From positions 1-33,716 of IMG/VR virus record IMGVR_UViG_3300011113_000285: DNA of 33,716 bases; one strand, written 5' to 3'. The notes below the pieces were generated by a model, which saw only the letters and a program-made list of their open reading frames with translations, did no database searches and had not been told where the DNA came from. The stretch comes from a virus. Every line of letters starts with the position of its first letter. The stretch's first letter is position 1. Shown here piece by piece: positions 3,070-21,729 of this stretch. The position numbers and the translations under genes were made by a program.

Positions 3070-3073
3070 GGGT

Positions 3074-3112: not shown

Positions 3113-3121
3113 GATGTCGGA

Positions 3122-3150: not shown

Positions 3151-3197
3151 CCCGACTTGACACTTTGGAACAAAAAATCGGAAAAAGTTTTGGGCGC

Positions 3198-3238: not shown

Positions 3239-3720
3239 ACGCTTCCACCCGCTGAACGGCCCTGTCTTGGCAGGCGAGGCCGAACAGCGTTCAACTTGAG
3301 GCGTGAGCAGCATACCACGCGACACCGGGGAATCCAAGCGGTCAGACCGCAACGCTGCAGCCTTGCGAGAGGCTCCGTATCTCGGCTGAGAGGGCGCGGC
3401 GAATGCCGCAGAGTCGCGGGGACTGACCCTACCCCGCGCCAGCGCGAACGCGCTGCGCTCCTGCATCGTGGAAGCGGCTGGCCCGGCGAAATGGTGAAAA
3501 CGATGCCTATGGGAAACCTCGCTGCGGCTCCGTGCGGCTGATCCCTGACCTCGCGATCCGGGGTCATGGTGTTCCTGCCGCTCACCATGCAACTGATTTC
3601 AACCGCGCCGGAGGCGCGGCGAGTGCGCGGAGCGCAACTGTCTGGAAAGGCCGTCGCCGGACGAATCCCGCCCCCCGCCGGGGCCGTCCAAGAAGCCCAA
3701 GGCGGGGCGGCGGAAAAAAT
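3200..3720 (-). ncRNA. Gene-free, hairpin-dense region: candidate structured RNA
   Basis: No ORF here has a ribosome site or family signal. Perfect stems follow one another. They are 3250-3289 (CGCTG/CAGCG and CGGCC/GGCCG round a TT/AA symmetric internal loop), 3301-3320, 3338-3350 (GCGGT/ACCGC), 3366-3384 (CGAGA/TCTCG), 3396-3409 (GCGGC/GCCGC), 3415-3438 (CGCGGGG/CCCCGCG), 3440-3455 (CAGCGC/GCGCTG), 3463-3506 (GCATCGT/ACGATGC, long loop), 3546-3566 (TGACC/GGTCA), 3565-3589 (CATGGTG/CACCATG), 3603-3619 (CCGCGCC/GGCGCGG) and 3624-3636 (TGCGC/GCGCA). The minus strand is preferred because a terminator lies at its 3' end, but I find no good minus promoter. GC-rich DNA raises chance pairing. An origin of replication is the main alternative. 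Confidence 0.4.
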
Positions 3721-5640: not shown

Positions 5641-5986
5641 CATCTTGGACAGGCTGCGGATCATTTGGACATCCTGCAACAGTCGAATCACCGCTGAACG
5701 CGCCGCAGCAGCCGACGAGATCGAACGGCTTCGACGCGAGGTCGATCAACGCGACCGTCGTTGCGTCGAACTGCAGTATCAACTTCGCGATGCAGCAGAG
5801 ACCGAACTGCTACTGCAGCAGGAAATCTGTCGGCTTGTCGGGGAGCAAGCGAACATGACCAGCATTGCGGTCGCGCAGGATCGCGGTTGGGACTGCTTTA
5901 AGTGCGCGTTCTGCGGCGTGGTAGATACGGTAGACCGCAAGCAAACCTGTCGCGCCTGCAACAAGGACTTCTACGCCGATGAATGA
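5630..5986 (+). CDS. Coiled-coil protein with C-terminal zinc ribbon
   Basis: 118 aa, ATG at 5630 overlapping the CsrA-like gene by 11 bases, with GGAGG eight bases upstream. Residues 20-75 form a long charged helix with coiled-coil character (ADEIERLRREVDQRDRRCVELQ). It then has VAQDRGWDCFK followed by CAFC and CRAC about 17 residues apart, a zinc ribbon. The VAxxRGWDCFK segment reappears in the gene at 6775, which lacks the zinc ribbon. I recall similar short RGWDCFKE proteins in other phages, all of unknown function. Confidence 0.78.
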   Translation: MSDDILDRLRIIWTSCNSRITAERAAAADEIERLRREVDQRDRRCVELQYQLRDAAETELLLQQEICRLVGEQANMTSIAVAQDRGWDCFKCAFCGVVDTVDRKQTCRACNKDFYADE

Positions 5987-6815
5987 AGAGAGCAATACAC
6001 GCAATCCATATGCGATAGAGCAACCGTGGGTTGTTTCGTTCAGCGGTGGACGAACCAGCGCGTTTATGCTGTGGAAGATTCTTGAGGCGAACGGAGGTCT
6101 ACCGGAAGGAAATGTCATTGCGTTCGCGAATACAGGTCGCGAGCATGAATCCACATTGGATTTCGTGGAAGCCTGCAGTCAAAACTGGCGGGTTCCTATT
6201 GTCTGGGTTGAACGACAGTTTCGTCAGACACCGGGGTTTCGCATCGTCACCCATGCAAGCGCGAGCAGGAACGGCGAGCCTTTTGCGGAACTGATTGAGC
6301 AGAAGCAGTATCTGCCGAATCCCATTGCGCGATTTTGCACACAGGAACTGAAGGTGCAGGCGATTGCGTCGTATCTGAAAAGCATTGGCATAATGGATGC
6401 GACGATGGCGGTTGGACTCAGAGCCGATGAGCCGCGCCGCGTGCATCGCGTGCATGGGGATGTTCGCAACGGATTTTCCTATGTATGCCCGATGCATCAA
6501 GCGGGGCATACGCTTGCCGATGTCGCGACATTTTGGAAGAGCCAGCGTTTTGATCTGCGCCTTCCCAATGATGATCGGGCGTTTGGAAACTGCGATTTGT
6601 GTTTCCTAAAGGGGCGTTCGATGGTTGAGCGCGTGATGCGCGAGGAACCACAGCGAGCGGATTGGTGGATTGAACAAGAGGAGAAGATAAAGGCGCGATT
6701 TCGGAAAGACAGGCCGACTTACGCGCAGATGCTGCATCAAATCCGCATTCAACCGACGCTTTTTGAAAGAGAGAATGACGATGACTCAACAATCCCCTGC
6801 ACCTGCACCGATTGA
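5979..6815 (+). CDS. PP-loop PAPS-reductase/sulfotransferase-like protein
   Basis: 278 aa. The PP-loop SGGRTS at residues 22-27 binds ATP or an adenylated substrate. FANTGREHESTLDF follows (an acidic TG-x-E motif typical of PAPS reductase-like proteins). Then come RFCTQELK (C120), a second conserved basic segment AVGLRADEPRR, and NCDLCFLKG (C205, C208) near the C-terminus. This set matches the phage 'phosphoadenosine phosphosulfate reductase family', related to the DndC and TilS fold. With C170 the cysteines could bind Fe-S or zinc. The substrate is unknown: nucleotide or DNA modification or sulfur transfer are possibilities, true sulfate assimilation is unlikely in a phage. The gene starts within the previous stop (8-base overlap). 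Codon use looks more AT-rich than in its neighbours, a sign of separate acquisition. Confidence 0.85.
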   Translation: MNEESNTRNPYAIEQPWVVSFSGGRTSAFMLWKILEANGGLPEGNVIAFANTGREHESTLDFVEACSQNWRVPIVWVERQFRQTPGFRIVTHASASRNGEPFAELIEQKQYLPNPIARFCTQELKVQAIASYLKSIGIMDATMAVGLRADEPRRVHRVHGDVRNGFSYVCPMHQAGHTLADVATFWKSQRFDLRLPNDDRAFGNCDLCFLKGRSMVERVMREEPQRADWWIEQEEKIKARFRKDRPTYAQMLHQIRIQPTLFERENDDDSTIPCTCTD

Positions 6816-6987: not shown

Positions 6988-7372
6988 TCTGGTGGAGGCG
7001 CAGAGACGGAAGGACGAGGGCATCGACCGCGCCAGCGAGGCGCGTAGCACGCTGCTCGCGCAGGCGCAGGCCATCGCCGTTGAACTGACCGCCTACGGGC
7101 GCGAGGTCACTAGCGACGAGGTGGCGGCTGAGATGCAGGCGCGTGGGCTTTCCTACGACGCGCTCGGCAACGCCGCCGGAGGCGTGTTCCGGTCGCCTCT
7201 GCTGGAGTGGACGGGAGCCATGAGGCCGTCGAGCCGGGTATCGACGCACGCACGCCTGATCCGGGTCTGGCGACGAAAGCCCCAGATCGGGGACGGCGCA
7301 CGCCTCTCAGCGGTTATGCTCCCCCGGCATGACCGACCAACGACCCCGCCGTCGAAGGTTGACGCAGGATGA
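6974..7372 (+). CDS. Phage DNA-metabolism-region protein (winged-helix-like)
   Basis: 132 aa, ATG at 6974 after AAGGAGG. The order GIDRASEAR, a helical stretch, TSDEVAAEMQARGLSYDALGNAAGGVFR, then STHARLIRVWRRK resembles a widespread small phage protein. That protein has the pattern G-I-x-R-A, T-x-[ED]-D-V-x-x-x-A-x-x-x-G-L, R-A-x-G-x-V, then S-x-x-x-x-H-x-R-x-V-x-x-W, and is commonly found near recombination and replication genes. A winged-helix DNA-binding fold is likely, but the function is not established. Its last 44 bases overlap the next small gene. Confidence 0.72.
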   Translation: MTLFDLVEAQRRKDEGIDRASEARSTLLAQAQAIAVELTAYGREVTSDEVAAEMQARGLSYDALGNAAGGVFRSPLLEWTGAMRPSSRVSTHARLIRVWRRKPQIGDGARLSAVMLPRHDRPTTPPSKVDAG

Positions 7373-7496
7373 GGTCGAGCGCATCCGAACGCTCAAGGCG
7401 CAGGGAGTCCCGCAGAAGGCAATCGCAGCCGAAATGCGCGTCTCGCAGTCCTGCGTCTCGCTCATCCTCAACCACAAGCGGCGGTTCAATCTCTGA
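7329..7496 (+). CDS. Small helix-turn-helix protein (55 aa)
   Basis: ATG at 7329, stop 7494-7496, 55 aa, overlapping the end of the previous gene by 44 bases. After a basic N-terminus (TDQRPRRRRLTQDE) residues 17-50 read VERIRTLKAQGVPQKAIAAEMRVSQ (given here in two parts), then SCVSLILNHKRRF. This is a clear trihelical HTH of the Hin-resolvase/homeodomain-like type: turn at QGVPQ, recognition helix at VSQSCVSLILN. It is likely a DNA-binding regulator of this phage. TTATGCT about 13 bases upstream could be a -10 box. No ribosome site stands out. Confidence 0.72.
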   Translation: MTDQRPRRRRLTQDEVERIRTLKAQGVPQKAIAAEMRVSQSCVSLILNHKRRFNL

Positions 7497-7500
7497 GACG

Positions 7501-7929
7501 ATGCACCACCTTGAGGTGATCGGAGACGTTGCCACGCAAGGCAGCAAGCGGATCGTCCGCCTGCGGAACGGTCGCACCGCCATGCTGGAGGCCAGCCGCC
7601 GGATCCGTCCGTGGCGGCAGGCCGTCGCGGAGGCCGCGATGGCGCACGGCATCCCGATGTTCACCGGGGACGTGACGCTGGAGATCGTGGCGCGATGGGT
7701 GCGCCCGGCATCGCACTACCGGAGGGACGGGACGCTGCGCGGCAACCTGCCGCAGAGGCCCGGATACGCCGATTGCGACAAGATTGCCCGGGGAGTGTGC
7801 GATGCGCTCGCGGGGATCGCGTACGCGAACGACAGGCAGGTCGCCGTACTCCGCGTCGAGCGCAGATGGTGCGAGCCGAGCCAGCCGCCGGGCGCGGGAA
7901 TCGACATCGGCGGCATCCCGAAATCGTGA
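7501..7929 (+). CDS. rusA: RusA-like Holliday junction resolvase
   Basis: 142 aa. RusA-family dimers cut Holliday junctions with Mg2+ and help resolve phage recombination intermediates. The family's acidic motif, D-x-D followed by D-A-L-x-G and D-x-Q-V, is seen here as PGYADCDKIARGVCDALAG and ANDRQV (D91, D93, D101, D111). The usual Asn after the second Asp is replaced by Lys and the DDxxV is NDRQV, so one acidic residue may differ. RRIRPWRQAV near residue 33 is the usual entry to the fold. The ATG at 7501 is four bases after the HTH gene's stop, with no strong ribosome site, so translation is probably coupled. It sits next to the ERF annealing protein, a fitting recombination pair. Confidence 0.85.
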   Translation: MHHLEVIGDVATQGSKRIVRLRNGRTAMLEASRRIRPWRQAVAEAAMAHGIPMFTGDVTLEIVARWVRPASHYRRDGTLRGNLPQRPGYADCDKIARGVCDALAGIAYANDRQVAVLRVERRWCEPSQPPGAGIDIGGIPKS

Positions 7930-7974: not shown

Positions 7975-8017
7975 GGGCGCGACGTTCGCGCCCGTGAATG
8001 CAAGGAACTGCAAGGAG
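7975..8017 (+). promoter_or_regulatory. Leader D: ACGTT-loop hairpin and AGGAAC hexaloop
   Basis: GGGCGCG (7975-7981), ACGTT and CGCGCCC (7987-7993) form a perfect 7-bp hairpin beginning 8 nt after the -10. TGCA (7999-8002), loop AGGAAC and TGCA (8009-8012) form a 4-bp hairpin with GGA in a hexaloop, immediately followed by the real Shine-Dalgarno AGGAG (8013-8017). An upstream GGA loop beside an SD GGA is the usual dual-site arrangement for CsrA repression. Confidence 0.7.
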
Positions 8018-8023
8018 AAGACC

Positions 8024-8788
8024 ATGCAGCAGAGTCAGAGCATCGGAGCGTTGGTCGCGGCAGTCGCGAAGGCGCAGCAGGAGATCCGCAACCCCGCGCT
8101 CGACAAGGCGCATCCCCATTTCAAGGGTTTCAAGTACGCATCGCTGGGATCGCACATCGACGCGATCCGCGAGCCGTTCGCGAGGAACGGGCTAATGATC
8201 TCGCAGGGAGTCAACAGCGACGACATGAGGGTCAGCGTCACGACGCTGATCGCGCACACCAGCGGCGAGTGGATGAGCAGCACGGTTGGCATGACGCTGG
8301 CGGAAAAGGCGACGGCGCAGAACCTCGGCGCGTGCGTGACGTACCTGCGGCGGTACGCGCTCGCGGCGATGTGCCTCCTGACCGGAGACGATGACACCGA
8401 CGCGGAGGAGGATCGCGAGGCTAAGGTGGAGCGGCCACCCGTCCGCTCACCGCAGCGCGACGTGTTCGATCCGACCCCCGTGAACGCGGCCCCGGTCGCG
8501 GCGCGGCCTCCGGCGAAGATGTGGCCGGACAGCGGCAAGGACGTGGTGATCGTGGAGAAGATCGTGCCGCGAGGCGAGACGAACGCCGTGCTTTGCAAGC
8601 ACGCCACGCAAGGAGCCTGCTGGGTGTCGGTTCCCGTCGCAGGCAATATGCCGCTCGGGGTCGGGGATCGCATCGAACTGTCATGGAAGTTCAATCACAA
8701 GGGCGACAGGCCTTTCGCGGAGGCCGTGGAGATCGGCGTGCCGCCAACCCTCAAGAGCATCCGCAAGGAGCAGGAGATTCCGTTTTGA
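8024..8788 (+). CDS. erf: ERF-family single-strand annealing protein
   Basis: 254 aa, ATG at 8024 with AAGGAG six bases upstream; a GTG at 7994 lies in the leader hairpin and is not the start. ERF proteins anneal homologous single strands during phage recombination and genome circularisation. Residues 1-60 (AKAQQEI.NPALDKAHPHFKGF.YASL, then IREPFARNGLMISQ) and the hallmark LGACVTYLRRYAL (101-113), followed by LLTGDDDTDAEED, are typical of the family. After a Pro-rich linker (about 137-165) the C-terminal 90 residues form an extra beta-rich domain (VVIVEKIVPRG, CWVSVP, IELSWKF) that may bind partners or ssDNA. Its neighbours are RusA upstream and the Gp157-like gene downstream. Confidence 0.9.
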   Translation: MQQSQSIGALVAAVAKAQQEIRNPALDKAHPHFKGFKYASLGSHIDAIREPFARNGLMISQGVNSDDMRVSVTTLIAHTSGEWMSSTVGMTLAEKATAQNLGACVTYLRRYALAAMCLLTGDDDTDAEEDREAKVERPPVRSPQRDVFDPTPVNAAPVAARPPAKMWPDSGKDVVIVEKIVPRGETNAVLCKHATQGACWVSVPVAGNMPLGVGDRIELSWKFNHKGDRPFAEAVEIGVPPTLKSIRKEQEIPF

Positions 8789-8949
8789 ACGCCTTTTACG
8801 AACTGATCGGATGCTTCTTCATCCTTGTCTACATCGGGATGTTCGTCGGGATCATCATGTGCGAGTTCCGCCTCTCCAAGATGCAGCGCATGATCGAAGC
8901 GCACTTGCGTTCGCTTGAGGCGCAGCGGCGGAAGGAAGGCCAGCGATGA
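8785..8949 (+). CDS. Small single-span membrane protein
   Basis: 54 aa from a TTG start at 8785 that overlaps the ERF stop (TTGA); no ATG comes before the membrane segment. Residues 5-28 (YELIGCFFILVYIGMFVGII) form one clear transmembrane helix. It is followed by a basic amphipathic helix (RLSKMQRMIEAHLRSLEAQ), so it probably sits N-out, C-in. The rare TTG start suggests low expression tied to ERF translation. Role unknown. Its last bases overlap the Gp157-like gene (ATGA). Confidence 0.68.
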   Translation: MNAFYELIGCFFILVYIGMFVGIIMCEFRLSKMQRMIEAHLRSLEAQRRKEGQR

Positions 8950-9455
8950 GCCTCTACGCCATTACGGAGGAGATGCAGCGGCTGCTGGATGTGTTCGACC
9001 AGCACGGCGACAGCGGCAGCGAGACCGCCGCTGCGATGCAGGAACACATCGCGGCACTCGCGGAGGCGTTCGACGCGAAGGCGGACTCCTACGCGGCCCT
9101 GATCCGCGTGTGCGAGGTGCGATCGCAGGCCCGGAAGGAGGAGGCGCAGCGGCTGATCGCGCTATCCGCTTCCGATGCCTCGCTCGCGGACAGGCTCCGA
9201 AACGCGCTCATGCAGGCGATGCAGGCCACCCGGCAGACAAGGGTGGAGACGGAGCGGTTCCGGCTGGCGGTGAGGCAGAACGGCGGCAAGTTGCCTATCC
9301 TGATCGCAGACACCGACGCGATCCCGCAGGCGTACCGAATCCCGGTCGTCACGGAACGCATCGACAAAGACGGCATCCGCGATGCGCTGGAGCGCGGAGA
9401 GACCGTTCCGGGAGCCAGCCTAGGGGTGCGCGGGTTCCGCCTCGACCTGCGTTGA
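8946..9455 (+). CDS. Gp157-like phage protein
   Basis: 169 aa, ATG overlapping the previous stop. The layout fits the siphovirus Gp157 family (PF05565). It opens MSLYAITEEMQRLLD, has a long helical hairpin (FDAKADSYAALIR, EEAQRLIALSASDASLADRL), the segment TRVETERFRLAVRQNGGKLP, and the typical ending IPQAYR...RIDKDGIRDALERGETVPGASL. It is a common companion of annealing proteins (ERF, Sak). Family members have been linked to phage resistance in Streptococcus, but the biochemical role is unclear. It is the last gene of this unit, before a strong terminator. Confidence 0.85.
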   Translation: MSLYAITEEMQRLLDVFDQHGDSGSETAAAMQEHIAALAEAFDAKADSYAALIRVCEVRSQARKEEAQRLIALSASDASLADRLRNALMQAMQATRQTRVETERFRLAVRQNGGKLPILIADTDAIPQAYRIPVVTERIDKDGIRDALERGETVPGASLGVRGFRLDLR

Positions 9456-10753: not shown

Positions 10754-11161
10754 ATGACCGATGACACCGCCAACGCCGGGGGTGTGGGGGGACTACGCGA
10801 CCCCGCCAGACGATGGGAGCAGCGGCAGCACCTGCGGGTGCTGGAGCAGGCCGTCTATCAGGGATGGGAGATCCCGGAGACGGCCTACGCGACCATCCCG
10901 ATTGACCTGCTCACCATCGCGCAGGACGAGGAGGCATCGCCCCGCGACCGGATCCGCGCCACCGAAGCGTTGATGCACCTAGCCGGGCAGCGCATGGATG
11001 CAGCGGTTCAGTACGACCGGATCAAGCGGCTGGATGCCGACATGGCGACGGACCGCGTGGAAATCTCGTCGTCGGTGTCCGATTCCCAACTGGCAGCGGT
11101 CGCTGCCGCCCTGCAGGCGAAGCCCCCATGCCCCGCAAAGGCCAAGCGAAAGCGACGTTGA
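10754..11161 (+). CDS. terS-like: Probable small terminase subunit
   Basis: 135 aa, ATG at 10754, directly upstream of and overlapping the large terminase by 34 bases. Small terminase subunits bind the packaging site and pass DNA to the large subunit. Helical core (RRWEQRQHLRVLEQAVYQGWEIPE, DLLTIAQDEEASPRDRIRATEALMHL, given in parts) with a polar C-terminus ending in KAKRKRR. I see no clear N-terminal HTH, so the call rests on position, size and predicted helical make-up. Confidence 0.6.
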   Translation: MTDDTANAGGVGGLRDPARRWEQRQHLRVLEQAVYQGWEIPETAYATIPIDLLTIAQDEEASPRDRIRATEALMHLAGQRMDAAVQYDRIKRLDADMATDRVEISSSVSDSQLAAVAAALQAKPPCPAKAKRKRR

Positions 11162-12594
11162 CCGCATTTGACGCGGTGGTGGCCGCACGCGAGAACCCTC
11201 TGGCGTGGCTCGCGCTCGCGCTCGGTCGCACGCCGTCCGACCTGCAGCGCGAACTCGTTTCGCACGCGCTCACGAACCTTTCGTGGTACGCGGAACTGCC
11301 TCGCGGCCACGCGAAGACCAGTACCATCGCCTACCTGATCGCGTGGTGGCTGGGAATCCGGCCAGACGCACGCATCAAGGTCATTTCGCAGACCGACGAC
11401 GCGGCGACGGCTACCAGCCGATTCGTGCGCGAAATCGTCAGATCCGATATCTACCGCGCCGTGTTCCCGGCAGTCAGCCTGCGAGCGGGAGAGGACACCG
11501 TGACAGGCTGGACGGTCACGGCCAAGGGCATCGTCCGGGGCCGCGACCCCAGCGTCAGCGCGTCCGGGATATTCGGGCGTACCGGAGGCCGTGCGGATGT
11601 CCTTTGGTTCGATGACATCTGCGACCTGCGGAACGCCGTCCTGCAGCCTGCGCTCCGGCAGCAGGTCAAGGAGGCCGTCGCGAACATCTGGATGCCCATG
11701 CTCGACCCCAGCGCGGCAAACGAGCCACGGGTCTGGAAAACTGCCACGCCGTTCCATACGGACGACGTGACGGCGGATTGGCGACGGCAGCACGCTGCCG
11801 ATGACAGCCTGTTGCGACGACCCTGCACCGAATCGCTGTCGCCGTGGCCGGAGGTGTTCACGCCGGACGTGCTGGCGGCACGCCGGGAGGACATGGGCGC
11901 GATGGCCTACGCTCGCGCCTACGAACTCGTCCCGCTGTCGAGCGACCTGCTGGTGTTCCGCCCGGAGTGGCTGGGGTACTACCGTCCCAACCAGCGACCG
12001 GGGACCGCCCGGTGCATCGCGGCGGTGGATTGGGGGTACGGGCGGAAAGAGCAGAGCCGGGATGACCCCGACTACAGCGTCTGCATCGTCGGGGAGGTCG
12101 GGCCAGACCGAAAACTGTACCTGACCGACATCCTGCGGATCCGCGAGCCGTTCCCGGCGTTCGCAAGGCAGGCGGCGGCATTGCTGGAGCGGCGCGGCGC
12201 GTCCGTCGTGCTAGCGGAGGCCAACGGCCCTCAGCGCGGGATATTCGACCAGTTTGCGGAAATGACGCACCAACCGATGGTGGCGGTCGAGCGCGTCAAC
12301 GACAAGCACCTGCGAGCGACCGGAGCGCAGCCGTTCGTGCAGGCCGGGAAACTCATGTTCCCGACCGACGACACCGGAGCCGTGCAGCCAGCGTTCCAGC
12401 CCGTCATGGACGAGATGCTCGCGTTCCCCGCCGGAGCGCACGACGACACGGTGGACGTAGTAGTTGACATGGTGTCGGAGGCCACACGCGGAACGCTCAC
12501 GAAGGCAGACATGAATGTCAATCGGATCGAACGACCCGATGCGATCTCGCGGATGTTTGGCAAGTCGGGAGTGAAACGTCCGTTCTTCTCCTGA
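11128..12594 (+). CDS. terL: Terminase large subunit
   Basis: 488 aa. ATP-driven packaging motor with a C-terminal nuclease that cuts genome ends. Walker A-like RGHAKTST (59-66), Walker B VLWFDD (158-163, with the catalytic acid after it) and the coupling segment TATPFH (206-211) make up the ATPase. The nuclease domain shows VDWGYG with D301, LAEANG with E364, and GAHDDTVD with D439/D440, a complete RNase H-like acidic triad. No ribosome site is obvious at the ATG 11128, consistent with coupling to the overlapping upstream gene. Length and motifs are normal for the family. Confidence 0.95.
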   Translation: MPRKGQAKATLTAFDAVVAARENPLAWLALALGRTPSDLQRELVSHALTNLSWYAELPRGHAKTSTIAYLIAWWLGIRPDARIKVISQTDDAATATSRFVREIVRSDIYRAVFPAVSLRAGEDTVTGWTVTAKGIVRGRDPSVSASGIFGRTGGRADVLWFDDICDLRNAVLQPALRQQVKEAVANIWMPMLDPSAANEPRVWKTATPFHTDDVTADWRRQHAADDSLLRRPCTESLSPWPEVFTPDVLAARREDMGAMAYARAYELVPLSSDLLVFRPEWLGYYRPNQRPGTARCIAAVDWGYGRKEQSRDDPDYSVCIVGEVGPDRKLYLTDILRIREPFPAFARQAAALLERRGASVVLAEANGPQRGIFDQFAEMTHQPMVAVERVNDKHLRATGAQPFVQAGKLMFPTDDTGAVQPAFQPVMDEMLAFPAGAHDDTVDVVVDMVSEATRGTLTKADMNVNRIERPDAISRMFGKSGVKRPFFS

Positions 12595-12607: not shown

Positions 12608-15574
12608 ATGTGCGGAAGCCGACACGCGTTCTCGCAACAAGACCTCGACCTCAAGCCGACGCAGCAGATGGCCGACAACGCGGCGCGGGGGCTGGAACTC
12701 CGCGAGAAGCACGGCAAGGGCGGCACGTCGGTCGGCGTGGCTCGCGCTCGCGACATCAAGAACCGCGCCAACCTCTCGCCGGAGACCGTCAAGAGGATGC
12801 ACTCGTTCTTCTCTCGTCATCAGGGCAATCAGGCCGGAGGCGAGGACGACGCAGGCTACATTGCGTGGATGCTCTGGGGTGGAGACGCTGGAAAGGCGTG
12901 GAGCGCACGAAAGGCCGCGCAGATCGACAAAAACGAATCGGCCCGGAGGGCCGCAAACATGAACGTCAAATCAAAAACCACGTTTGCTGCCGACCTTGTT
13001 GTACATAAGTTCCCAGATGGGTGGTTGGTCGTGGAAAGGCATTCGGGATTCAGCGGACAAAAGGAACTGGTGTTGACGAAGGCAGGCCAGCAGGGCTTGA
13101 TAGTCGGTTCCATTAGCGAAGCAAAAACTAAACACGACGCACTTACGAACTGGGTTTTTCGCGCTCAGGTAGTAGAAAAGCGACCGAACGAATGGGTGAT
13201 TCAATCCACCACGCAGGACGGAGGATATTCGTTGGGGGGTCGCGGAGGCCAGCCGTTTACTAGCAAAGTCAAAGCAGAGGAAGCATTGAGAAAAATGCAA
13301 GAATCCTATCGGAAAAAGGCTGGCATGAAGCGTGAACGGAACACGTTTGCAAATCCAGCCGCGAGGAAATCAACGATGGCTCTCAATCCCGTCATCACGG
13401 ATGCTCTGAAGTTTCACACCGCAAAGATGAGCGATCTGCTGCGGCAGTTCATCTCGGAGGCAAAGCGGGTTCATGCGACCTACGCCGATCTGGGATGGGC
13501 GGGAAGGGGATTCGATTCCTCTTGGATCTCGGAGCAGCGCGGCATCGTGGATAATGCGATCTCCGCTATGGCTCGCGGAAACGTCGTGGGGGCGAGCAAC
13601 ATCGTCCGGCAATGGGCCGACGAGTTCTTTGGAACCTACGGTCATCACGAACACTCTCGGACCTTGGCGTTCCTTGCGCGAGCGATTGCACGCGAACCTT
13701 CCCATGTTGTCGAACTCGCGAAGGCGCACAAGGTCACTCTGTCCCGGAGTGCAAGGAAGGCAACGATGGCACGCGAACTCATCGGATCCAAGGGCAACAA
13801 GCGGGTCTATCTCGGTGGCCCGGACGGCAGCGGCAAGTACAACGTGTACTTCGTGCAGGTTGCAAGCACGGGCGTCCCCGGTGAAACCCCCGCCGAAGAC
13901 CTGATCGAACTCAAGCAGTTCGCGACGGAGGCGAAGGCGCGTAGCGCGGCGCAGAAGATGCTGTCGAGCCGCCCCGGCGCGAAGGCCGCGATGGGGGATC
14001 AAGACCCTGCAAAGGAACTTCTGCGAGTCCGAATCGGGAGCAGTACTGTTTCCGCAAAGGATTTCATGGACTATGCGAAGCAATATGTTCCCGGCGTGAG
14101 CCGCAGCGATTTTCTGGCGGATGTCATTGAGAAGGTCAATGCCGCATTGCAGCGTCGTGGAGAGTCAATCCGCGCAACAATGCTAGTGCGTGGAAAGGAT
14201 TTCTCCCGCCCCGGTGCGAAGGCGCGGTTCAACGCTGCTTCCGCATGGCTGGCGAAGTATCTGTCCAAGGTCAATGAGTGGTGGCGCGATCACACGGATT
14301 ACCCGACCGACCTCGACGCGAGTTCAGATCGCGGAGACATCGAAGGCGTGCTGGATGACATCGCGGAACATTGTCGTGAGGCCGTGCCGCGTGAGGCAAG
14401 GCCGTCGTGGTACGCTGCAGCGGTGCGCGATATGCAGAAGATCCCGCACGCACGAAAGGCTCACATGAAGAACCATTTCGGAATCGACCGTCCGATGAAT
14501 GTCTCGCAGACCGCTTCCGGCGGCGGCACATGGACGACGAAGACGGAACGCTACGGATCCAAGAAGGCAACCGTCGAGTTCTACAACAAGGGCGGCATGG
14601 TCGGATCCGTGTATCAGGATCCAGACAATCCGCGTCTGTACAAGGCGTTCAGCGAGCCGGATGGACGCGAGATCGCCAGCGGCTCGCGTGATGCGTGCAA
14701 GGCGGCTGTCGAAAAGTTGGCAATGTCCCGCCCCGGCAAGGCAACGATGGCGAAGTTCAAGGTTGGCGACCGCATTGCTTATAAGCCGTTCCCTGCGGAT
14801 ACTGCCGGGGAAATCGTGGAAATCCGTGAGCCGGATTTTGTTGGCGACATTCAACGCCGCCGTTCGGGGCAACGCCTTGAAGTTGAGTACGGCGTTCGGC
14901 AGGCGGGTGGGGCGATCATGTGGATTGACGAGGGCATGGCGGTGAAGGCATCCCGCCCCGGCGCGAAGGCGGTGTTTGAAATCAAGGTTGGCGACCGTGT
15001 GCTAGGTAGCCTTGCTGTCCAAGGCGGTGCTGGAGTGATTGGTACGGTGTTCAAGATCGAAGACGGATACGCGCATATCCACGGAGATCCAAGCGTGGAC
15101 GATGAGCGGTGGGGACGTAAGACCTACAAAGTACCGCTGCGGCTCGTCACGAAGATGTCCCGCCCCGGTGCGAAGGCGCGGTTCGGCGGTATGCGAAACA
15201 TGACGAATGGGCCGTACACCCTGCACTACACCGCATCGGGACTTTACGGCGAACCAACGTGGCGACTGATCGACAAGAACGGCAAGCCCACGAATGCGGT
15301 GGAGCATGACGAGGCGAACGCGAGGGAAATGCTTCGCAAGGCAAACGCTGGAGAGGCGGTGTACATTTCTTCTCGCCCCGGCGCGAAGGCGGCAATGTCC
15401 CGCCCCGGCGAGGCAGAGGCGTTCGCCATCGGCGCGACCTCCGACAGCGCAGATCCTGCAAAGGACGAAGCCCTGACCGCTCTGGCCGCGAAAGTCGGGC
15501 GCGAGCACACCGTCAACCTGTTCAAGCGTTGGAGCGAGGGCAAGGCGAGCATGAACCGCTCGGAAGGAAACTGA
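12608..15574 (+). CDS. 988-aa modular protein with repeated SRPGAKA linkers
   Basis: Residues 1-105 (ARGLELREKHGKGGTSVGVA, NLSPETVKRMHSFFSRHQ, YIAWMLWGGDAGKAW) match a domain I recall from the C-termini of XkdF-like phage proteases and related head proteins. The rest is a chain of about ten different small modules, 50-145 aa each. The linkers between them start at residues 99 (SARKAAQ), 251 (AARKSTM), 378 (LSRSARKATM), 453 (SSRPGAKAAM), 532 (FSRPGAKARF), 614 (HARKAHM), 706 (MSRPGKATM), 781 (ASRPGAKAVF), 850 (MSRPGAKARF), 921 (SSRPGAKAAM) and 930 (MSRPGEAEAF). Modules 715-780 and 791-849 both begin K-x-K-V-G-D-R and look like SH3-like barrels; 463-613 is helical. It lies between terL and the head genes. 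A capsid cargo polyprotein cut by the head protease at 19004 is a hypothesis. No ribosome site is evident at the ATG. Confidence 0.85.
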   Translation: MCGSRHAFSQQDLDLKPTQQMADNAARGLELREKHGKGGTSVGVARARDIKNRANLSPETVKRMHSFFSRHQGNQAGGEDDAGYIAWMLWGGDAGKAWSARKAAQIDKNESARRAANMNVKSKTTFAADLVVHKFPDGWLVVERHSGFSGQKELVLTKAGQQGLIVGSISEAKTKHDALTNWVFRAQVVEKRPNEWVIQSTTQDGGYSLGGRGGQPFTSKVKAEEALRKMQESYRKKAGMKRERNTFANPAARKSTMALNPVITDALKFHTAKMSDLLRQFISEAKRVHATYADLGWAGRGFDSSWISEQRGIVDNAISAMARGNVVGASNIVRQWADEFFGTYGHHEHSRTLAFLARAIAREPSHVVELAKAHKVTLSRSARKATMARELIGSKGNKRVYLGGPDGSGKYNVYFVQVASTGVPGETPAEDLIELKQFATEAKARSAAQKMLSSRPGAKAAMGDQDPAKELLRVRIGSSTVSAKDFMDYAKQYVPGVSRSDFLADVIEKVNAALQRRGESIRATMLVRGKDFSRPGAKARFNAASAWLAKYLSKVNEWWRDHTDYPTDLDASSDRGDIEGVLDDIAEHCREAVPREARPSWYAAAVRDMQKIPHARKAHMKNHFGIDRPMNVSQTASGGGTWTTKTERYGSKKATVEFYNKGGMVGSVYQDPDNPRLYKAFSEPDGREIASGSRDACKAAVEKLAMSRPGKATMAKFKVGDRIAYKPFPADTAGEIVEIREPDFVGDIQRRRSGQRLEVEYGVRQAGGAIMWIDEGMAVKASRPGAKAVFEIKVGDRVLGSLAVQGGAGVIGTVFKIEDGYAHIHGDPSVDDERWGRKTYKVPLRLVTKMSRPGAKARFGGMRNMTNGPYTLHYTASGLYGEPTWRLIDKNGKPTNAVEHDEANAREMLRKANAGEAVYISSRPGAKAAMSRPGEAEAFAIGATSDSADPAKDEALTALAAKVGREHTVNLFKRWSEGKASMNRSEGN
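13964..15424 (+). repeat. Dispersed SRPGAKA-coding DNA repeats
   Basis: About 20-30 bp units coding S-R-P-G-A-K-A-x-[MF], built on CCCGCCCCGGCGCGAAGGC with small changes. They lie at 13964-13993, 14201-14230, 14723-14749, 14948-14977, 15155-15184, 15368-15397 and 15395-15424. More diverged relatives (ARKATM type) are at 12902, 13358, 13739 and 14447. Near-identity at the DNA level between unrelated modules points to recent duplication or to recombination between linkers. Confidence 0.85.
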
Positions 15575-15575
15575 C

Positions 15576-16430
15576 ATGAGCACCGCAGGCAACACACCGA
15601 ACTTCATCGCCGCTAATCAGATTCTTCCGTTTCGCACCGTGAAGATGCAAGACGGGAATTCGTTTTCAGTCAGGCCTTTTGCATCAGCGGATACCCGCGA
15701 TGCGATGATCGGTGTCACGGATGGCAGCGTTCGCGGTTTCCGTAGCAGTTTGCACGCCGAACCGGGCGATCCTGTCGTGTTGCAGAACGGCGAGTTCGTG
15801 CAACTAACCTGTGCAAGCGCATCGGTGATTGCTGCAGGTGATCTGTTGGATTCGGATGCCAATGGCGCGGTTTATCCGCTTACGCCGGACGTAACGATTG
15901 GAACAACCAGAGCGCATTTCGTCGCGTGCGAGAACGCGCAGTACGGTGAGGTGTTCTGGGCGAAGCGGATTGGCGCGTACGAGGAGCGGTCTGTTCAAGG
16001 GGATTTGGTTTATGCGGGAGCACAGACGGCCCAGACGGAGAATGCAACCCCGGTGCTTCTAGACCTCAATCTTTCGTTTGGATCTCGGGCGGCAGCGTTG
16101 GGATTCGCTCAGTCTTTCTCAACATTTGGATTTCAGGCAATCGTCACAGGATCGACTGCTACGAGTCAAATCTGCGGCGCGTACCTGTTCCAAGGTTTGA
16201 TTCGGGGACCGGGAAATGCTGGCGGTATCGCGTTTGACAATCCGCAGGTAATCGTCGCATCGACCAAGACGGTTCTTGGAGAAACTAACGCGGCACTCAA
16301 CTGCAACCTCGTCATAAACTCATCTACGGGTTGGTCTTCGTTTGAACTGATTGGGCTTGCTGCAACGACGATGCGCTGGACTTTCAGCGCCAACGTCTCC
16401 GTGATGGGAAGCACGTCAGGTACGTTCTGA
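15576..16430 (+). CDS. Capsid decoration-like protein with extra C-terminal domain
   Basis: 284 aa, ATG at 15576 after GGAAGG, one base past the previous stop. Residues about 1-110 share a pattern with the small decoration protein at 20263: I-[LN]-PFR at the start, then GVTDGSV, then a stretch ending LLxSDANG. The C-terminal half (about 140-284) is a separate Ser/Thr/Gly-rich beta domain (LDLNLSFGSR, FELIGLAATTMRWTFSANV) as in head-fibre or jelly-roll spikes. It is probably a minor head decoration or fibre. Head location is inferred from the shared domain and from the portal gene directly after it (TGATG overlap). Confidence 0.7.
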   Translation: MSTAGNTPNFIAANQILPFRTVKMQDGNSFSVRPFASADTRDAMIGVTDGSVRGFRSSLHAEPGDPVVLQNGEFVQLTCASASVIAAGDLLDSDANGAVYPLTPDVTIGTTRAHFVACENAQYGEVFWAKRIGAYEERSVQGDLVYAGAQTAQTENATPVLLDLNLSFGSRAAALGFAQSFSTFGFQAIVTGSTATSQICGAYLFQGLIRGPGNAGGIAFDNPQVIVASTKTVLGETNAALNCNLVINSSTGWSSFELIGLAATTMRWTFSANVSVMGSTSGTF

Positions 16431-17884
16431 TGTCGCAGGCATCCGACAATCCTCTCACGAACGGGTTGCCCCCGGAAAAGCGACCGCGCAAGCCGCTCAA
16501 GCCTCCGGTCGAGCGCGGCATCACGCAGCCGCTCGCTACGGCGGTCGAACTTCAGCGGTCGTTTTTTACGACAGCGGACAAACTGCTCCGCAACTCGTCG
16601 CTCGCATACAGGCTGAATCCGCAGTATCAGCAGATGATGCGTGCGGACGCGGACATCGAAGGTGTCCTACGGTCGCTACAGGTCACGCTGGCATCGTTGG
16701 AATGGACGGTCACGTGCGACGACGAGAAGAACGAGAAGGCCAAGCAGTACGCGGAGAGGATCGGTGCGATCTTCGCTGCGATGCCGCGTCGGTCGGACTT
16801 CGTGCGAGCGATGCATGAAGCGGTCTGGTACGGCAACGCTGCGTGCAACATCGTATACATGAAGGATCCGCGTCTCGGCGTGGCGGTGCGCGAGTGGTTC
16901 CCGTTCCACCCGGACACGCTTGCGTACGACCAGCGCGGCAACCTCGCGATGCGCGTCGGCGCGGACTACTCCGCGCACGGGCCGTCGTCGCAGAACATCG
17001 GCTTCGATTCCCGCGTTCACATTTTCACCGAAGCGGAGCGCAAGGCGATCATCCTGCACCGGGTGTTCATCAACGCGCCGGACTTCAACGATCCAAACAG
17101 CACGGAGTCGATCTACCGTGGCGTCGGAGCGCGTGACGTGTGCTGGTTCATGTGGCTCGCGAAGCAGGAGATTTTGCAGGACGCGATCACCTACGCGGAA
17201 CGCTACGCGATGGGGATTCGCGTCGGCTACTACCCGCTCGGACAGGATCAGGGTCGGACGATGATGGAGAACGTCCTCTCCAACCTGACGAACGACAACA
17301 GCGTGCTGTTGCCGCAGAGCGGGACGGAGAAAATCTACGACATCGACATCAAGGAGCCGAACGCGGGTCGCGCTCAAGTCTTCATGGAACTCGTCAACTG
17401 GTTCAGCGGCAAGATCAAGGAGGCGATCCTTGGTCAGAGCCTGAGCAGCGAGACGGGCAGTACCGGACTCGGATCCGGGGTCGCCAGCCTGCACGCCGAC
17501 ACGCTGTCGCGCATCATCCGGTATCACGCAGACGCGCTCGCGGACAGCATGACCTGCGATTTCGTTCGCGTCGTCGCAAGGATGCTCGGAGCCTCCGACG
17601 AGGAGGCGAGCCTCCTGCGATTTGAGTTCGCGCCGGAGCGCCCCGACCCGAAGGAGCGCCTTGAGGCGATCAAGGCGTTCGTGGAACTCGGAGGTCGCGT
17701 GGCGGAATCCGAAGTTCGCGACCTGCTCGGCCTGTCTGCGCCCTCCGAAGGCGAGCGGACGCTCGGCGGCGGGTCGGGCGAGCCGACGACCGTGGCCGGA
17801 TGGCTGGAGTCGGGGCAAGCCCCCGAAGGTCAGCCTCCCGCGCCGGACGCGCCCAGAGCCTTCCAGCGGCGTTCTCTCTGGTAA
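16430..17884 (+). CDS. Portal protein (DUF935, Mu gp29-like)
   Basis: 484 aa, ATG at 16430 within the previous stop (TGATG). The portal is the dodecameric ring at the head vertex through which DNA is packaged. The DUF935 pattern is clear: MMRADADIEGVLRSLQVTL and WTVTCDD near residues 68-100. There follow a stem region (FVRAMHEAVWYGNAACNIVY, WFPFHPDTLAYD) and the hallmark IKEAILGQSLSSETGSTG with ADTLSRIIRYHADALADSM in the last third. The Gly/Pro-rich tail after 435 is probably flexible. Next gene overlaps by one base (TAATG), the usual Mu-like order portal then gpF. Confidence 0.93.
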   Translation: MSQASDNPLTNGLPPEKRPRKPLKPPVERGITQPLATAVELQRSFFTTADKLLRNSSLAYRLNPQYQQMMRADADIEGVLRSLQVTLASLEWTVTCDDEKNEKAKQYAERIGAIFAAMPRRSDFVRAMHEAVWYGNAACNIVYMKDPRLGVAVREWFPFHPDTLAYDQRGNLAMRVGADYSAHGPSSQNIGFDSRVHIFTEAERKAIILHRVFINAPDFNDPNSTESIYRGVGARDVCWFMWLAKQEILQDAITYAERYAMGIRVGYYPLGQDQGRTMMENVLSNLTNDNSVLLPQSGTEKIYDIDIKEPNAGRAQVFMELVNWFSGKIKEAILGQSLSSETGSTGLGSGVASLHADTLSRIIRYHADALADSMTCDFVRVVARMLGASDEEASLLRFEFAPERPDPKERLEAIKAFVELGGRVAESEVRDLLGLSAPSEGERTLGGGSGEPTTVAGWLESGQAPEGQPPAPDAPRAFQRRSLW

Positions 17885-18999
17885 TGGCCTCTCAACCCTT
17901 TCCAGCCGTAGCAACGCTCCTGAAGGCCGGGGAAGCCGCCTATCGCGCAGCGGTGGCCCTACAGGTGCAGAACCGCGACAGCACGGAGGAATGGGATTCG
18001 TGGGAACAAGTGACAGCAGCCCTGCTGCTGGTGTCATGGGCGGAAGGCGCAGCCGCGACCCTCAAGGCGGCGGGAGCGAACGTCCCCATGCCGGAACCCC
18101 GGATCACGTTCGTCCGATTGGATGAGCGGGTGCGAGTCGGGGATGCCGCGCTTGACGTGGCGATGCGGTTTGACCCCGGCCCGGCTCGCGAGGTCGTGGA
18201 GCGATACGTCCGGCTGCTGCCGATGACTCGCGAACGATGGGACGCGCTGATCGAACACGCGCTGCAGGCGGCAGGCGAGATGCGCGACGACGAGGCCGCG
18301 AACGCTCTGGAGGCGATTCTGGAGCGCAGCCCGGCCCTCCGCGCTCTGGTGCAGGGCAAGCCTCAGCCCCGGAAGGGGACGCTTCCTCGCGAGGTCGAGG
18401 TGCGCCGCACCCCGGGGGTGCAGGCAGCGGTGCAGGGATCGTGGTTCGTGACGGGAATGACGCAGGAGCAGGTTGAGGAAACGCGGGATCTGCTGGCAAA
18501 GACCATTCGGGGAGAGGTCACGCAGTCGGTCGCGGGTAAGCGGCTGGAGCGGCTGGGGGTCGGGGACTTCGTGGAGCAGGCCACGCTCGCGACCGGAACC
18601 GACCTGACCGCAGCACGGCTGGAGACGGTTTTCCGCACCAATTTGAATCGGGCGCAGACGCAGGGTCGGCTTGACATCTGCCGGGATCCAGTTGTCAAGA
18701 AGTTCGTTCCATTGATGCGGTTCAACGCGACGAGGGATCGGCGCACCCGTGACACCCATCGGCAGATGGACGGATTCATCGCGACGACCGATCAGATCGA
18801 CTCGTACGGGATCCCGGCCCCGCTGGGATACAACTGCCGATGCAGTTGGTCGCCCGTTTCGATTGCGAAGGCGTTTGCTGCAGGCTGGTGCGACGAGGAC
18901 GGAAATCCCGACCTTGAGGCGATCCGCAGACACAACGGGCAGCGGCAGACATTGATTGACAAAGGTCTGGTTCCCGATCCCGGATTTATTAGTGGCTGA
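17884..18999 (+). CDS. Mu F-like / SPP1 gp7-like minor head protein
   Basis: 371 aa, ATG at 17884 overlapping the portal stop; the frame is open upstream within the portal gene but the TAATG junction fits. The last 170 residues carry the Mu F signature: ETVFRTNLNRAQTQGR, RFNATRDRRTRDTHRQMDGF, YGIPAPLGYNCRCSW. Proteins of this family sit inside the head near the portal and are needed for assembly and often for DNA ejection. The N-terminal 200 residues are helical and specific to this phage. Confidence 0.92.
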   Translation: MASQPFPAVATLLKAGEAAYRAAVALQVQNRDSTEEWDSWEQVTAALLLVSWAEGAAATLKAAGANVPMPEPRITFVRLDERVRVGDAALDVAMRFDPGPAREVVERYVRLLPMTRERWDALIEHALQAAGEMRDDEAANALEAILERSPALRALVQGKPQPRKGTLPREVEVRRTPGVQAAVQGSWFVTGMTQEQVEETRDLLAKTIRGEVTQSVAGKRLERLGVGDFVEQATLATGTDLTAARLETVFRTNLNRAQTQGRLDICRDPVVKKFVPLMRFNATRDRRTRDTHRQMDGFIATTDQIDSYGIPAPLGYNCRCSWSPVSIAKAFAAGWCDEDGNPDLEAIRRHNGQRQTLIDKGLVPDPGFISG

Positions 19000-19003
19000 T
19001 ACG

Positions 19004-20251
19004 ATGCACGCGCAAATGTCCCAACCATCTCACCGGATCACCGACGCAGGAGACAAGGTCGTCATTCACGATCTTGAGGTCTTCTGCGCGTACGACCCGA
19101 CCATCGACGGCGATCACGACGAGGAACTGAAGGCGTTCACCAACGAGCGCGTGCAGGACATCGTGGACAGCACGCAGCGGTACATGGAAAAGGGTTCCTT
19201 CCCAAGACTAGTGGTCATGCACGAACGCGATGGAAAGGAACCGAAGTCCTCCGTCGGTCGGTTCACGCACATCGCGTATCAGGATCGCGATGGTGTCGGC
19301 TACATCGTCGGTGACTGCGAGGTCGAGCGCAGCGTGTTCGACAAGTTGCTGGCTACGAACGCATTCCCGCGCCGCAGCGCGGAAATCTGGCAGGATCACA
19401 ACCATCTATCTGAGGTCGCGCTGTTGGGTCGAGAGACTCCGCGCAGGCCGCTTCCCGACACGCATTTCGCTCGCAAGGGCGAGCGCGTGACCTTCAGCAG
19501 ATCACTCCGCTTCGACATGGGGACGGTCGGCGGCGGTCTATCGACTTTCGTCCCCGGAACGGAAAAAACCAAGATGGCAGACAACGACATCCGAAGCGAG
19601 ATGTCCGCGCTGAAGGCATCGCTGGAGGAACTCGCTAGCGAGTTCAAGAAGCGGTTTGCCGACGAGGCGGACGACAAGGACGAGATGATGTATCACGAAC
19701 GCGAGGAGAACGACATCAAGGAGACGATGGACGCGGACGATATGCTCGCGCAGCAGTTCGCGGAGGAGGAGGGCGATGGCGATGGCATCCACATCGACAT
19801 TGATTCCCACGGCGACGAGGACGAGGACGAGGACGAGGAAGAGGTCGATCAGATGCTCACGGCAAGCCGCCGTGGTCGTCCCGATGTCTTCGCTCTCCGT
19901 CGCGAGAACCGCCGCATGGCGCGTGAACTCGCGGAGATCCGCGCCGAACTCAGCCGCGAGAAGTTCAGCCGCGAACTCGACGCGATGGAGCAGGAGGGAT
20001 ATCGCATCCCGACCGACCGTCGTCCGCAACTCATCTCCGAACTGTCCGCGAGCGTCGATCCCGCCGCTCTGCTCGACACTTGGCGCGAACTCTTCGCACG
20101 CGACCCGATGGGTGTTCGCATCGACATGAGCCGCGCCAAACTTCCCGAAAGCGACATCGACTCCCGCCAGATCGGTGATCTCGTCCGCGAGTTCGCCGGG
20201 AAGCCGGAGGAGTTCCGCAAGGCAATCAACAACCGCATGAAGCAGCGGTAA
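19004..20251 (+). CDS. Prohead protease-scaffold fusion
   Basis: 415 aa from the ATG at 19004; a TTG at 18956 also lies in frame but inside the previous gene. Residues 1-160 resemble the Mu I / phage prohead protease type: FTNERVQDIVDSTQRY, LVVMHERDGKEP with a conserved His, VGDCEV, then RRSAEIWQDHNHLSEVALLG with Ser and a second His region. After about residue 180 comes a scaffold region: TVGGGLSTFVPGT, a helix, a very acidic run (DEDEDEDEEE near 275) and long coiled-coil helices (RRENRRMARELAEIRAELSR) to a basic C-terminus. Scaffold would assemble the capsid and be removed by the protease. Exact catalytic residues are not certain. Confidence 0.82.
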   Translation: MHAQMSQPSHRITDAGDKVVIHDLEVFCAYDPTIDGDHDEELKAFTNERVQDIVDSTQRYMEKGSFPRLVVMHERDGKEPKSSVGRFTHIAYQDRDGVGYIVGDCEVERSVFDKLLATNAFPRRSAEIWQDHNHLSEVALLGRETPRRPLPDTHFARKGERVTFSRSLRFDMGTVGGGLSTFVPGTEKTKMADNDIRSEMSALKASLEELASEFKKRFADEADDKDEMMYHEREENDIKETMDADDMLAQQFAEEEGDGDGIHIDIDSHGDEDEDEDEEEVDQMLTASRRGRPDVFALRRENRRMARELAEIRAELSREKFSRELDAMEQEGYRIPTDRRPQLISELSASVDPAALLDTWRELFARDPMGVRIDMSRAKLPESDIDSRQIGDLVREFAGKPEEFRKAINNRMKQR

Positions 20252-20262
20252 GGAAAAAAAAC

Positions 20263-20655
20263 ATGGCAGACTTCGGATTCACTCCCAATCTCACCGCAAG
20301 CGGAACGATCAATCCGTTCCGCTTCGTGGAACTCAACACCGGAAACCCGTTCACCGGGCAGTCGGCAAACGCCGCGTCCGACAACATTCTTGGCGTTACG
20401 GACGGCAGCGTGTATCAGTACGATCAGACCGCACACGCGATTGCTGGCCGTCAGATCACGCTGCAGCCGTCCAACACCGTGCAGGTGCAACTTGGATCTG
20501 GCGGCGCGAGTATCGCAAACCTGCTGACCTCCGACGCAAACGGCAGGGCCGTCGTCGGAACCCAATCGCAGGTGTGCTACTACATCGCGCTGGAGGCTGG
20601 CAGCGAGGATGAAATCATCCGCGCATTCCGAATCGGCACTCGCGTCGTTCCGTGA
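20263..20655 (+). CDS. Small capsid decoration protein
   Basis: 130 aa, ATG at 20263 after AAGGAAA, between the scaffold and capsid genes, the usual site of lambda D-like or head-stabilising proteins. Gly, Ala and Thr-rich, beta-type, with GVTDGSV (residues about 46-52) and LLTSDANGRAVV (about 86-97). The first half of the protein at 15576 shares both. It would trim or stabilise the capsid surface. Confidence 0.78.
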   Translation: MADFGFTPNLTASGTINPFRFVELNTGNPFTGQSANAASDNILGVTDGSVYQYDQTAHAIAGRQITLQPSNTVQVQLGSGGASIANLLTSDANGRAVVGTQSQVCYYIALEAGSEDEIIRAFRIGTRVVP

Positions 20656-20691: not shown

Positions 20692-21729
20692 ATGGCATTC
20701 TCAGTCGTCGGTGGTGGACTTTCGACGTACATCCCGTCCACCAATGATCTCGCTACTGGTGCGCTGCAGGTGGAGTTCACCCGCAGCGTCAACTCATTTG
20801 CGATCTCGCGCTACGCGCAGATCGTCCCCGTCACCAAGATGACGGGGTTCTATCTCCGTCAGGACGTTCCCGACAACGTGCGGCTCACGAATGATCGTGA
20901 GTTTGCGTGGCCGCTCGGGAACGACCGTCCCGTCGGCAAGCAGAACGCTTTCGACTTCGTTCAGTATTCGACGCAGCGGTTTGCGTTCCCGTTCTACATC
21001 CCGCAGGAGACCACGCAGCAGGCCGCGTGGGATGTCGTCGCGCAGCACGCTCGTTCCAAGGCGCAGTTGGCGATGACCTCCCGTACGAACCGCGCTGCGT
21101 CCGTCCTGACGGCGACGGCCAACTGGGGAAGCAACTTCGTCGCGGCTCCGGGTACGGCTCCCATCTCGGCAGGGTCGTGGTCTAACTCGTCCGAAGCGAA
21201 CGGCTACATCCAGAAGTCCATTCAGGCCGTCATGCGGCAGGTCAGCCTTTCGACGGGTGGAGCGGTTGCCCCCAACCAGTTGATCATGGTCATCAGCCCG
21301 ACCATCGCGCAGGTCATCTCGCAGGCTCCAGAGGTCAAGGCATACGTTCGGAACTATCCGCAGGCTCTCAACTTCCTGCAGGGTTCCGACACGTTCTCCC
21401 GCTGGGGCATCCCCTCGACGCTGTTCGGTCTTGGCGATGTCGTCGTTGACGATTCGGTCAAGGTGACGAGCAAGAAGGGTTCGGCAAGCGTGACCAGCGA
21501 CTACATCTTCGGCAATAGTGCCGTGTTTGTGAGTCGTCCGGGTGGTCTGGTCGGCGTGGAGGGCGCAACGTCGTTCTCTACCTGCCAGATTTTCGCGTAC
21601 GAGGACATGACCGTCGAGCAGTTCAACGATCCGATGAACCGTCGTATCGAAGGCCGGGTCATCGACAACAGCGTCACGGCTGTCGTCGCTCCGGTCGGCG
21701 GCTATCTCATCTCGGATGTGACCGCGTAA
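20692..21729 (+). CDS. Major capsid protein
   Basis: 345 aa, ATG at 20692 after AAGGGA, in the standard place downstream of the scaffold. It has the composition and flow of an HK97-fold capsid protein: YAQIVPVTKMTGFYLRQDVPDN, a P-domain-like helix (QQAAWDVVAQHARSKAQLAM, SRTNRAASVL), LIMVISPTIAQVISQAPEVK and a beta-rich C-terminus with SRPGGLVGVEGATSF. No large N-terminal scaffold domain, in agreement with a separate scaffold. Its N-terminus VVGGGLSTYIPST echoes the scaffold's TVGGGLSTFVPGT. Confidence 0.88.
   Translation: MAFSVVGGGLSTYIPSTNDLATGALQVEFTRSVNSFAISRYAQIVPVTKMTGFYLRQDVPDNVRLTNDREFAWPLGNDRPVGKQNAFDFVQYSTQRFAFPFYIPQETTQQAAWDVVAQHARSKAQLAMTSRTNRAASVLTATANWGSNFVAAPGTAPISAGSWSNSSEANGYIQKSIQAVMRQVSLSTGGAVAPNQLIMVISPTIAQVISQAPEVKAYVRNYPQALNFLQGSDTFSRWGIPSTLFGLGDVVVDDSVKVTSKKGSASVTSDYIFGNSAVFVSRPGGLVGVEGATSFSTCQIFAYEDMTVEQFNDPMNRRIEGRVIDNSVTAVVAPVGGYLISDVTA

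Follow-up and report, generated by a model that had tools for sequence, protein, structure and literature searches.

Phage T4 makes basic internal proteins with a 10- to 19-residue targeting leader that is cut by the protease gp21 (PMC9026906), and polyvalent proteins, multidomain products encoded beside portal-terminase genes, are inferred to be packaged and injected and vary in their domain combinations (Iyer et al. 2017, PMC5512222). Recombinases of the Rad52-like type in phages, Erf among them, are relaxed in their fidelity and exchange DNA that has diverged (PMC3945230). Here we describe a locus that bears comparison with each of these: an open reading frame (ORF) of 988 amino acids (aa) at positions 12608 to 15574, plus strand, of the virus record IMGVR_UViG_3300011113_000285, which was analyzed over its full 33,716 nucleotides (the window). 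The ORF encodes a modular polyprotein in which small modules are joined by a repeated linker of the form SRPGAKAx[MF]. We somewhat favor reading it as a combinatorial module chain in the head-gene cluster of an uncultured phage clade with a Mu-type portal, reshuffled at the linkers, whose basic product is packaged and injected.

The T4 internal proteins IPI-III and Alt are likewise small, basic, variable and made with the head genes, with a short N-terminal leader and a protease of the gp21 fold in the same phage. In T4, however, they are separate genes with one leader each and L/I-x-E cleavage sites, whereas here many modules, joined by the same linker, sit in one putatively packaged chain. 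No L/I-x-E motif is present at the boundary between leader and cargo, where leaders and linkers have [SA]RPGAKAx[MF]. Polyvalent proteins are also encoded with the portal-terminase late genes and also combine multiple disparate domains, but the modules here are tiny and mostly private, and a repeated seam is not described in PMC5512222, whose text never uses the word 'linker'. A Pfam scan of 45 linker proteins found none of the polyvalent-protein domains (MPTase, ART, PBECR, ParB-like, LPD and so on) at E ≤ 0.01, although remote relatives could be missed. As far as its genes tell, the chain would work like T4 internal proteins and polyvalent proteins but fails one defining feature of each. The mosaics made by Rad52-like recombinases (Red beta, Erf; PMC3945230) arise by exchange at short shared stretches, and an Erf-type gene is present in the window, but the shared stretch here is a repeated, standardized in-frame seam within one gene and not incidental homology. 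In the open-access literature, the only literature searched, we found neither the string SRPGAKA nor any described phage polyprotein of this kind with a repeated standardized seam inside one gene, and we regard the chain as a variant of modular phage head-associated proteins.

The ORF is an intact open frame and stands, as an earlier note made from the sequence alone had described, between the terminase large subunit gene (TerL, 11128 to 12594) and the head genes; it is followed by a small gene at 15576 to 16430 and the Mu-type portal gene at 16430 to 17884. An N-terminal domain is followed by about ten modules of roughly 60 to 120 aa. Seven near-identical linkers had been counted in the earlier note, and this is correct for five, which are full copies of SRPGAKAx[MF]; the other two are SRPG variants, one of them (SRPGKATM) a residue shorter than the full linkers and the other (SRPGEAEAF) diverged. 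All four of the weaker, KAxM-like linkers that had been proposed (ARKSTM, SRSARKATM, HARKAHM and EGKASM) could be located in the chain. The linker DNA is indeed nearly identical as well, since the 21-mer TCCCGCCCCGGCGCGAAGGCG has five matches with at most three mismatches in the window, all of them inside 12608 to 15574, where dinucleotide shuffles give an expectation of 0.00. Using a position matrix trained on relatives, the five full linkers score 26 to 28 and the strongest matches in reversed sequence about 5 to 10. The linker motif is absent from every other frame of the window.

Relatives were found in large numbers, nearly all of them metagenome contigs. A degenerate DNA pattern in which synonymous third bases were left free, run on IMG/VR contigs, matched more than 100, mostly with several linkers per ORF. 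In this pattern-selected set, 109 of the 113 linker ORFs occupy, in the same orientation, one of two slots among the head genes, between TerL and portal or between the MuF-type protein and the protease. A sample independent of the linker was gathered by portal homology alone and restricted to loci with both TerL and portal (n = 59); a linker ORF lies between these two genes in 58 of the loci and has at least two linkers in 53, with slots ranging from 280 to 4500 bp. Absence of the motif from relatives, the outcome that would have spoken against the earlier note, is thereby excluded, and the motif and module swapping that it suggested looking for in metagenomic phages were both found across the clade. 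A clear exception to the two-slot rule is the locus L043, where a linker ORF (2587 to 3424, minus strand) lies upstream of TerL. An exact 20-mer scan of genomes gave 13 single matches, of which only one is a true relative, while the remainder look like chance. This 6.5-kb contig (L163, OMJK01000020.1) is a distant clade member with a linker ORF before the protease; its binning in a Nitrospiraceae metagenome-assembled genome is a weak hint to the host and could be a binning error.

Across the clade, chains have one of two beginnings: the helical domain phrog_2859, or a leader, for example MSNTRKQIAARLGMA, followed directly by a linker. The short leader spans about 15 to 20 residues and ends in the linker, and a leader helix was found in 75 of 144 ORFs. 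Interior modules are typically 60 to 90 aa long and mostly without cysteine, and a C-terminal module, phrog_2423, closes many chains. At the level of sequence, these comparisons establish a chain with a fixed start, interchangeable 60- to 90-aa modules, common C-terminal modules and one linker type joining them all. Large modules with the cysteine-glycine motif FxExCGTGAGGFxPGNxCG, unlike other modules, are present in L007 (5567 to 6836), L045 and L090.

Modules were defined by cutting the linker ORFs at linkers scored with the position matrix, on which the clusters depend. The 113 ORFs gave 644 modules in about 200 families, and families recur next to changing neighbors, as in the case of family M1, whose 23 copies occur in 18 neighbor contexts. 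Among 73 near-isogenic pairs, defined as having flanks at least 90% identical in DNA, the slot differs in 60, and 50% of the 218 breakpoints fall within 6 nt of a linker as compared to 9.7% for random positions. The excess is also seen over all pairs of the portal-selected set (32% versus 12% expected) and in the linker-selected set (47% versus 13% expected). Pairs with portals 97 to 100% identical share only about 40% of their interior modules on average, one ORF being counted in the few slots that have two. The nearest relative of the window (L152/G001) has TerL and portal flanks that are 91 to 94% identical and an N-terminal domain in common; no interior module is shared, and homology resumes at exactly 15398, the start of a linker, to continue through the C-terminus. 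The ratio of nonsynonymous to synonymous substitution rates (dN/dS) has a median of 0.10 in modules and is below 0.5 in 48 of 49 families; because purifying selection is this strong, module turnover is not decay. The case that linkers are recombination points at which modules are gained and lost, one of the proposals of the earlier note, is therefore strongly supported by comparison of relatives.

Two other explanations for the turnover bear on these data. The first is that metagenome assembly joined repeats artificially, for which a 21-bp repeat would be a possible chimera point in relatives that are nearly all contigs. This is scarcely credible, given frames that stay open across many linkers, the low dN/dS of the modules and identical architectures on independent contigs; the core is presumably also shorter than typical assembly reads. 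The second is that the chain has nothing to do with the host and is an ordinary protein of the head interior or of assembly, its turnover being the drift of tolerant structural filler. The fixed place between terminase and portal and the lack of a recognized effector domain are what such a protein would show, but strong purifying selection combined with wholesale replacement between phages with near-identical portals is unusual for structural parts, and we consider this explanation unlikely.

The linker itself is constrained in its DNA. Serine is encoded by TCC in 87% of linkers versus 21% elsewhere, proline by CCC in 90% versus 27%, glycine by GGC in 95% versus 48% and the alanine at position 5 by GCG in 93% versus 34%. 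In the same phages, invariant S, R, P, G and A columns of TerL, portal, major capsid protein (MCP) and protease served as a control; there the most frequent codon accounts for a median share of about 0.5 to 0.66. The freezing of synonymous codons has sharp edges at the linker, and of 245 SRPGAKA linkers, 151 have the identical 21 bp and 220 deviate at no more than one base. This conservation fits a recombination seam, whether selected or kept identical by exchange.

The peptide is conserved in its own right. A pattern R-x-G-x-K-x-x-[MF] persists after the DNA core has decayed (R2, G4, K6 and above all [MF]9), such that diverged cores matching at only five of seven positions keep [MF]9 in 74% of cases and K6 in 96%. 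The Met or Phe that had been called a fixed feature holds in relatives, being present in 84% of exact cores against the background of 5.9% that applies to both classes. A small residue (A or G) follows [MF]9 in 65 to 80%, for both Met and Phe, where the background is about 25%, and F or M directly precedes position 1 in 42 to 51%. Because the peptide pattern is conserved, the linker also matters as protein, and these counts show both its 21-bp DNA core and its peptide to be under constraint. Met9 as the relic of a start codon was considered and rejected, as Phe is equally common and families switch between the two.

If the linker peptide were a neutral by-product of DNA kept identical by recombination, the frozen codons and their sharp edges would follow, as would the finding of the same core in a phage whose portal is only 37% identical. 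Such a reading is very unlikely, since K6 and [MF]9 are retained in diverged linkers much more often than chance would allow; Phe at position 9 has the codon TTT or TTC and Met has ATG, and either residue is found in the same module family. It is rather unlikely, in our judgment, that the linker is a repeated tag that stays uncut, each copy (R, K, K, aromatic/Met) docking on the acidic scaffold, the capsid lining or DNA and thereby spacing and packaging the modules. Each linker does add a charge of about +2 to +3 to strongly basic polyproteins beside an acidic scaffold, and the R, G, K and [MF] positions are kept after decay of the DNA core, but a pure tag would be without obvious need for a small residue after [MF].

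In the reading that we favor, exchange would take place by homologous recombination across the linker core, each linker forming a short island of identity in unrelated sequence, and exchanges would stay in frame because all linkers share one frame. The phage's own Erf-type single-strand annealing recombinase (7994 to 8788, plus strand) would be the most likely promoter of this exchange. Integron gene cassettes are also interchangeable units bounded by a short repeated sequence, but the units here are in-frame protein modules, and the 27-nt linker has no attC-like fold beyond chance: hairpins in its DNA are no better than in shuffles, with fold z-scores of -0.13 and 0.37 on the two strands. No integron integrase was detected in the part of the window's genes that was scanned.

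The basic chain would then be made with the head proteins, co-assemble with an acidic protease-scaffold inside the procapsid and be delivered into the host with the DNA. Polyproteins have net charges of +12 to +52, against -32 for the scaffold. Capsid cargo and injection are suggested by context, namely the head-gene location, basic charge, leader length, protease and T4 precedent. The modules may be small proteins with host-directed or counter-defence functions, and an arms race may be behind their rapid turnover.

A structure model of the product of 18995 to 19633 has T4 gp21 as its best solved match (Z 8.8, root-mean-square deviation 3.2 over 120 residues), followed by herpesvirus proteases, and its matches in BFVD are capsid maturation and prohead serine proteases. 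On the basis of this predicted fold, the head protease that the earlier note had placed at 19004 is well assigned. The gene (18956 to 20251) continues into an acidic scaffold that makes up its second half and to which the charge of -32 refers. A Met at 19574 is invariant in the clade and preceded in most relatives by AAGGA(GG), so that this internal ATG probably starts a separately translated scaffold (19574 to 20251). Phage lambda has such an internal scaffold start within its protease gene, in C/Nu3. The KTKM at the protease-scaffold junction was examined as a linker and rejected, relatives showing the codon context of an internal start. A peptide GGGL[SN]T[FY][VI]P is common to the protease-scaffold junction (19523 to 19574) and the MCP N-terminus (20692 to 20740), and its S/N choice varies in step between the two across the clade; the peptide possibly serves both proteins for docking or cleavage.

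These results bear on the idea that the chain is a true polyprotein, every linker of which is cut by the neighboring head protease during maturation to free separate mini-proteins in the capsid, as T4 gp21 does with internal proteins. We regard this as a serious possibility that falls a little short of even. A protease of the gp21/herpesvirus fold is at hand, and the linker has the look of a processing site, with [MF]9 followed by A or G and F or M before position 1; leader plus linker is similar in size to the T4 capsid targeting sequence (PMC9026906). The phrog_2859 N-terminal domain is fused to the head protease itself in other clade members. Many further phages, among them named phages of Vibrio, Limnohabitans and Roseobacter, have it at the start of proteins that by eye resemble head proteases or fusions of protease and capsid protein, and it may serve more generally as a domain of the capsid interior. 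On the other side, a linker-like site was found neither at the protease-scaffold junction nor at the MCP N-terminus; the two have GGGL[SN]T[FY][VI]P in common, a peptide unlike the linkers. The gp21-like proteases that are known cleave after Glu (PMC9026906) and not after Met or Phe, and some linkers end in A, H or N. A more tentative possibility is a dual-code seam, in which one 27-bp element is both the recombination site for a library of about 200 or more in-frame cassettes and the head-protease cut site that releases injected mini-proteins.

Several observations weigh against the reading of a reshuffled, injected chain. Roughly half of the breakpoints fall away from any scored linker, and many of those recur at a single position close to where the N-terminal domain ends. 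The pairs of relatives do not represent independent events, and because breakpoints at linkers cannot be placed within the 21 bp, a homologous crossover would look the same as gene conversion or the insertion of a cassette. What speaks for Erf as the driver is the presence of its gene, and it is gene context that suggests packaging. The linker is not known from any cultured phage: a portal search of 50,697 phage records gave two weak matches, and a search with a set of common modules found none. Comparison of 45 linker proteins with Pfam, NCBIfam and PADLOC gave scattered weak matches only and no clear module function, for which reason a host-directed role is a guess. Matches to PHROGs are confined to the N-terminal domain, the module at the C-terminus and a small number of others, such as phrog_9437, which is free-standing in Rhizobium and other phages.

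If the favored reading is right, the small phage proteins of the clade form a ready library; most have no relatives in databases, they are probably delivered to the host at the start of infection, and many candidate counter-defence proteins are among them. The linker would provide a natural design rule for in-frame module exchange. Recombination of phage modules at conserved sequences on their borders, an old idea, would become measurable within a single gene. The dual-code seam, if true, would be categorically new, a cassette polyprotein delivery system in phages.

All features of the chain in the window lie on the plus strand. Its common first module, the phrog_2859 helical domain ('DLKPTQQMA...'), spans 12653 to 12967. 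The structure model and motif positions place a beta-rich module at 12986 to 13360, flanked by the weak linkers KSKTTF and ARKSTM (13361 to 13378), and the model predicts a helical bundle at 13379 to 13741 (pLDDT, the model's per-residue confidence, about 85). The weak linker SRSARKATM (13742 to 13768, from the matrix scan) leads into a module at 13769 to 13966 that clusters with family M7 of relatives. Full linkers, each identified by motif and 21-mer match, then follow at 13967 to 13993 (SRPGAKAAM) and 14204 to 14230 (SRPGAKARF), on either side of a module of family M64 (13994 to 14203) that is also found in L044. A predicted helical module with a related stretch in L037 (14231 to 14446), the weak linker HARKAHM (14447 to 14467) and a module modeled with a beta-beta-beta-beta-alpha core (14468 to 14725; residues 650 to 707, pLDDT about 90) come next.

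The variant linker SRPGKATM (14726 to 14749) precedes a module beginning MAKFKVGDR (14750 to 14950), which is KOW/SH3-like by eye only, with pLDDT below 50. The linker SRPGAKAVF at 14951 to 14977 has a DNA core that is exactly the clade 21-mer. It is followed by a module of family M27 (FEIKVGDRVLG..., 14978 to 15157), a full linker SRPGAKARF (15158 to 15184, motif and 21-mer match) and a module FGGMRNMT... defined by clustering and model (15185 to 15370). A further full linker, SRPGAKAAM (15371 to 15397, found in the same way), directly abuts the variant SRPGEAEAF (15398 to 15424); the breakpoint in homology with the nearest relative falls on the first base of this variant. The C-terminal module (15425 to 15571), family M35, is common to the window and that relative, and the weak linker EGKASM is at 15536 to 15553. 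For the chain as a whole the structure model is weak, at a mean pLDDT of 58, and a Foldseek search with it gave no useful match.

The neighboring genes are also on the plus strand. TerL and the portal (Portal_Mu) form the left and right borders of the slot, and the second slot, which relatives use, is bounded on the left by a MuF-type minor head protein (17800 to 18999); the major capsid protein is encoded at 20692 to 21729. Close to the Erf-type gene are genes for a RusA-like Holliday junction resolvase (7369 to 7929) and a Mu Gam-like end protection protein (8946 to 9455). The genes at 15576 to 16430 and 20263 to 20655, which flank the head genes, are related to each other (both phrog_673), and the first weakly resembles Phage_cement_2; the pair is possibly a duplicated decoration protein. 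A gene of the phosphoadenosine phosphosulfate reductase family is present at 5979 to 6815.

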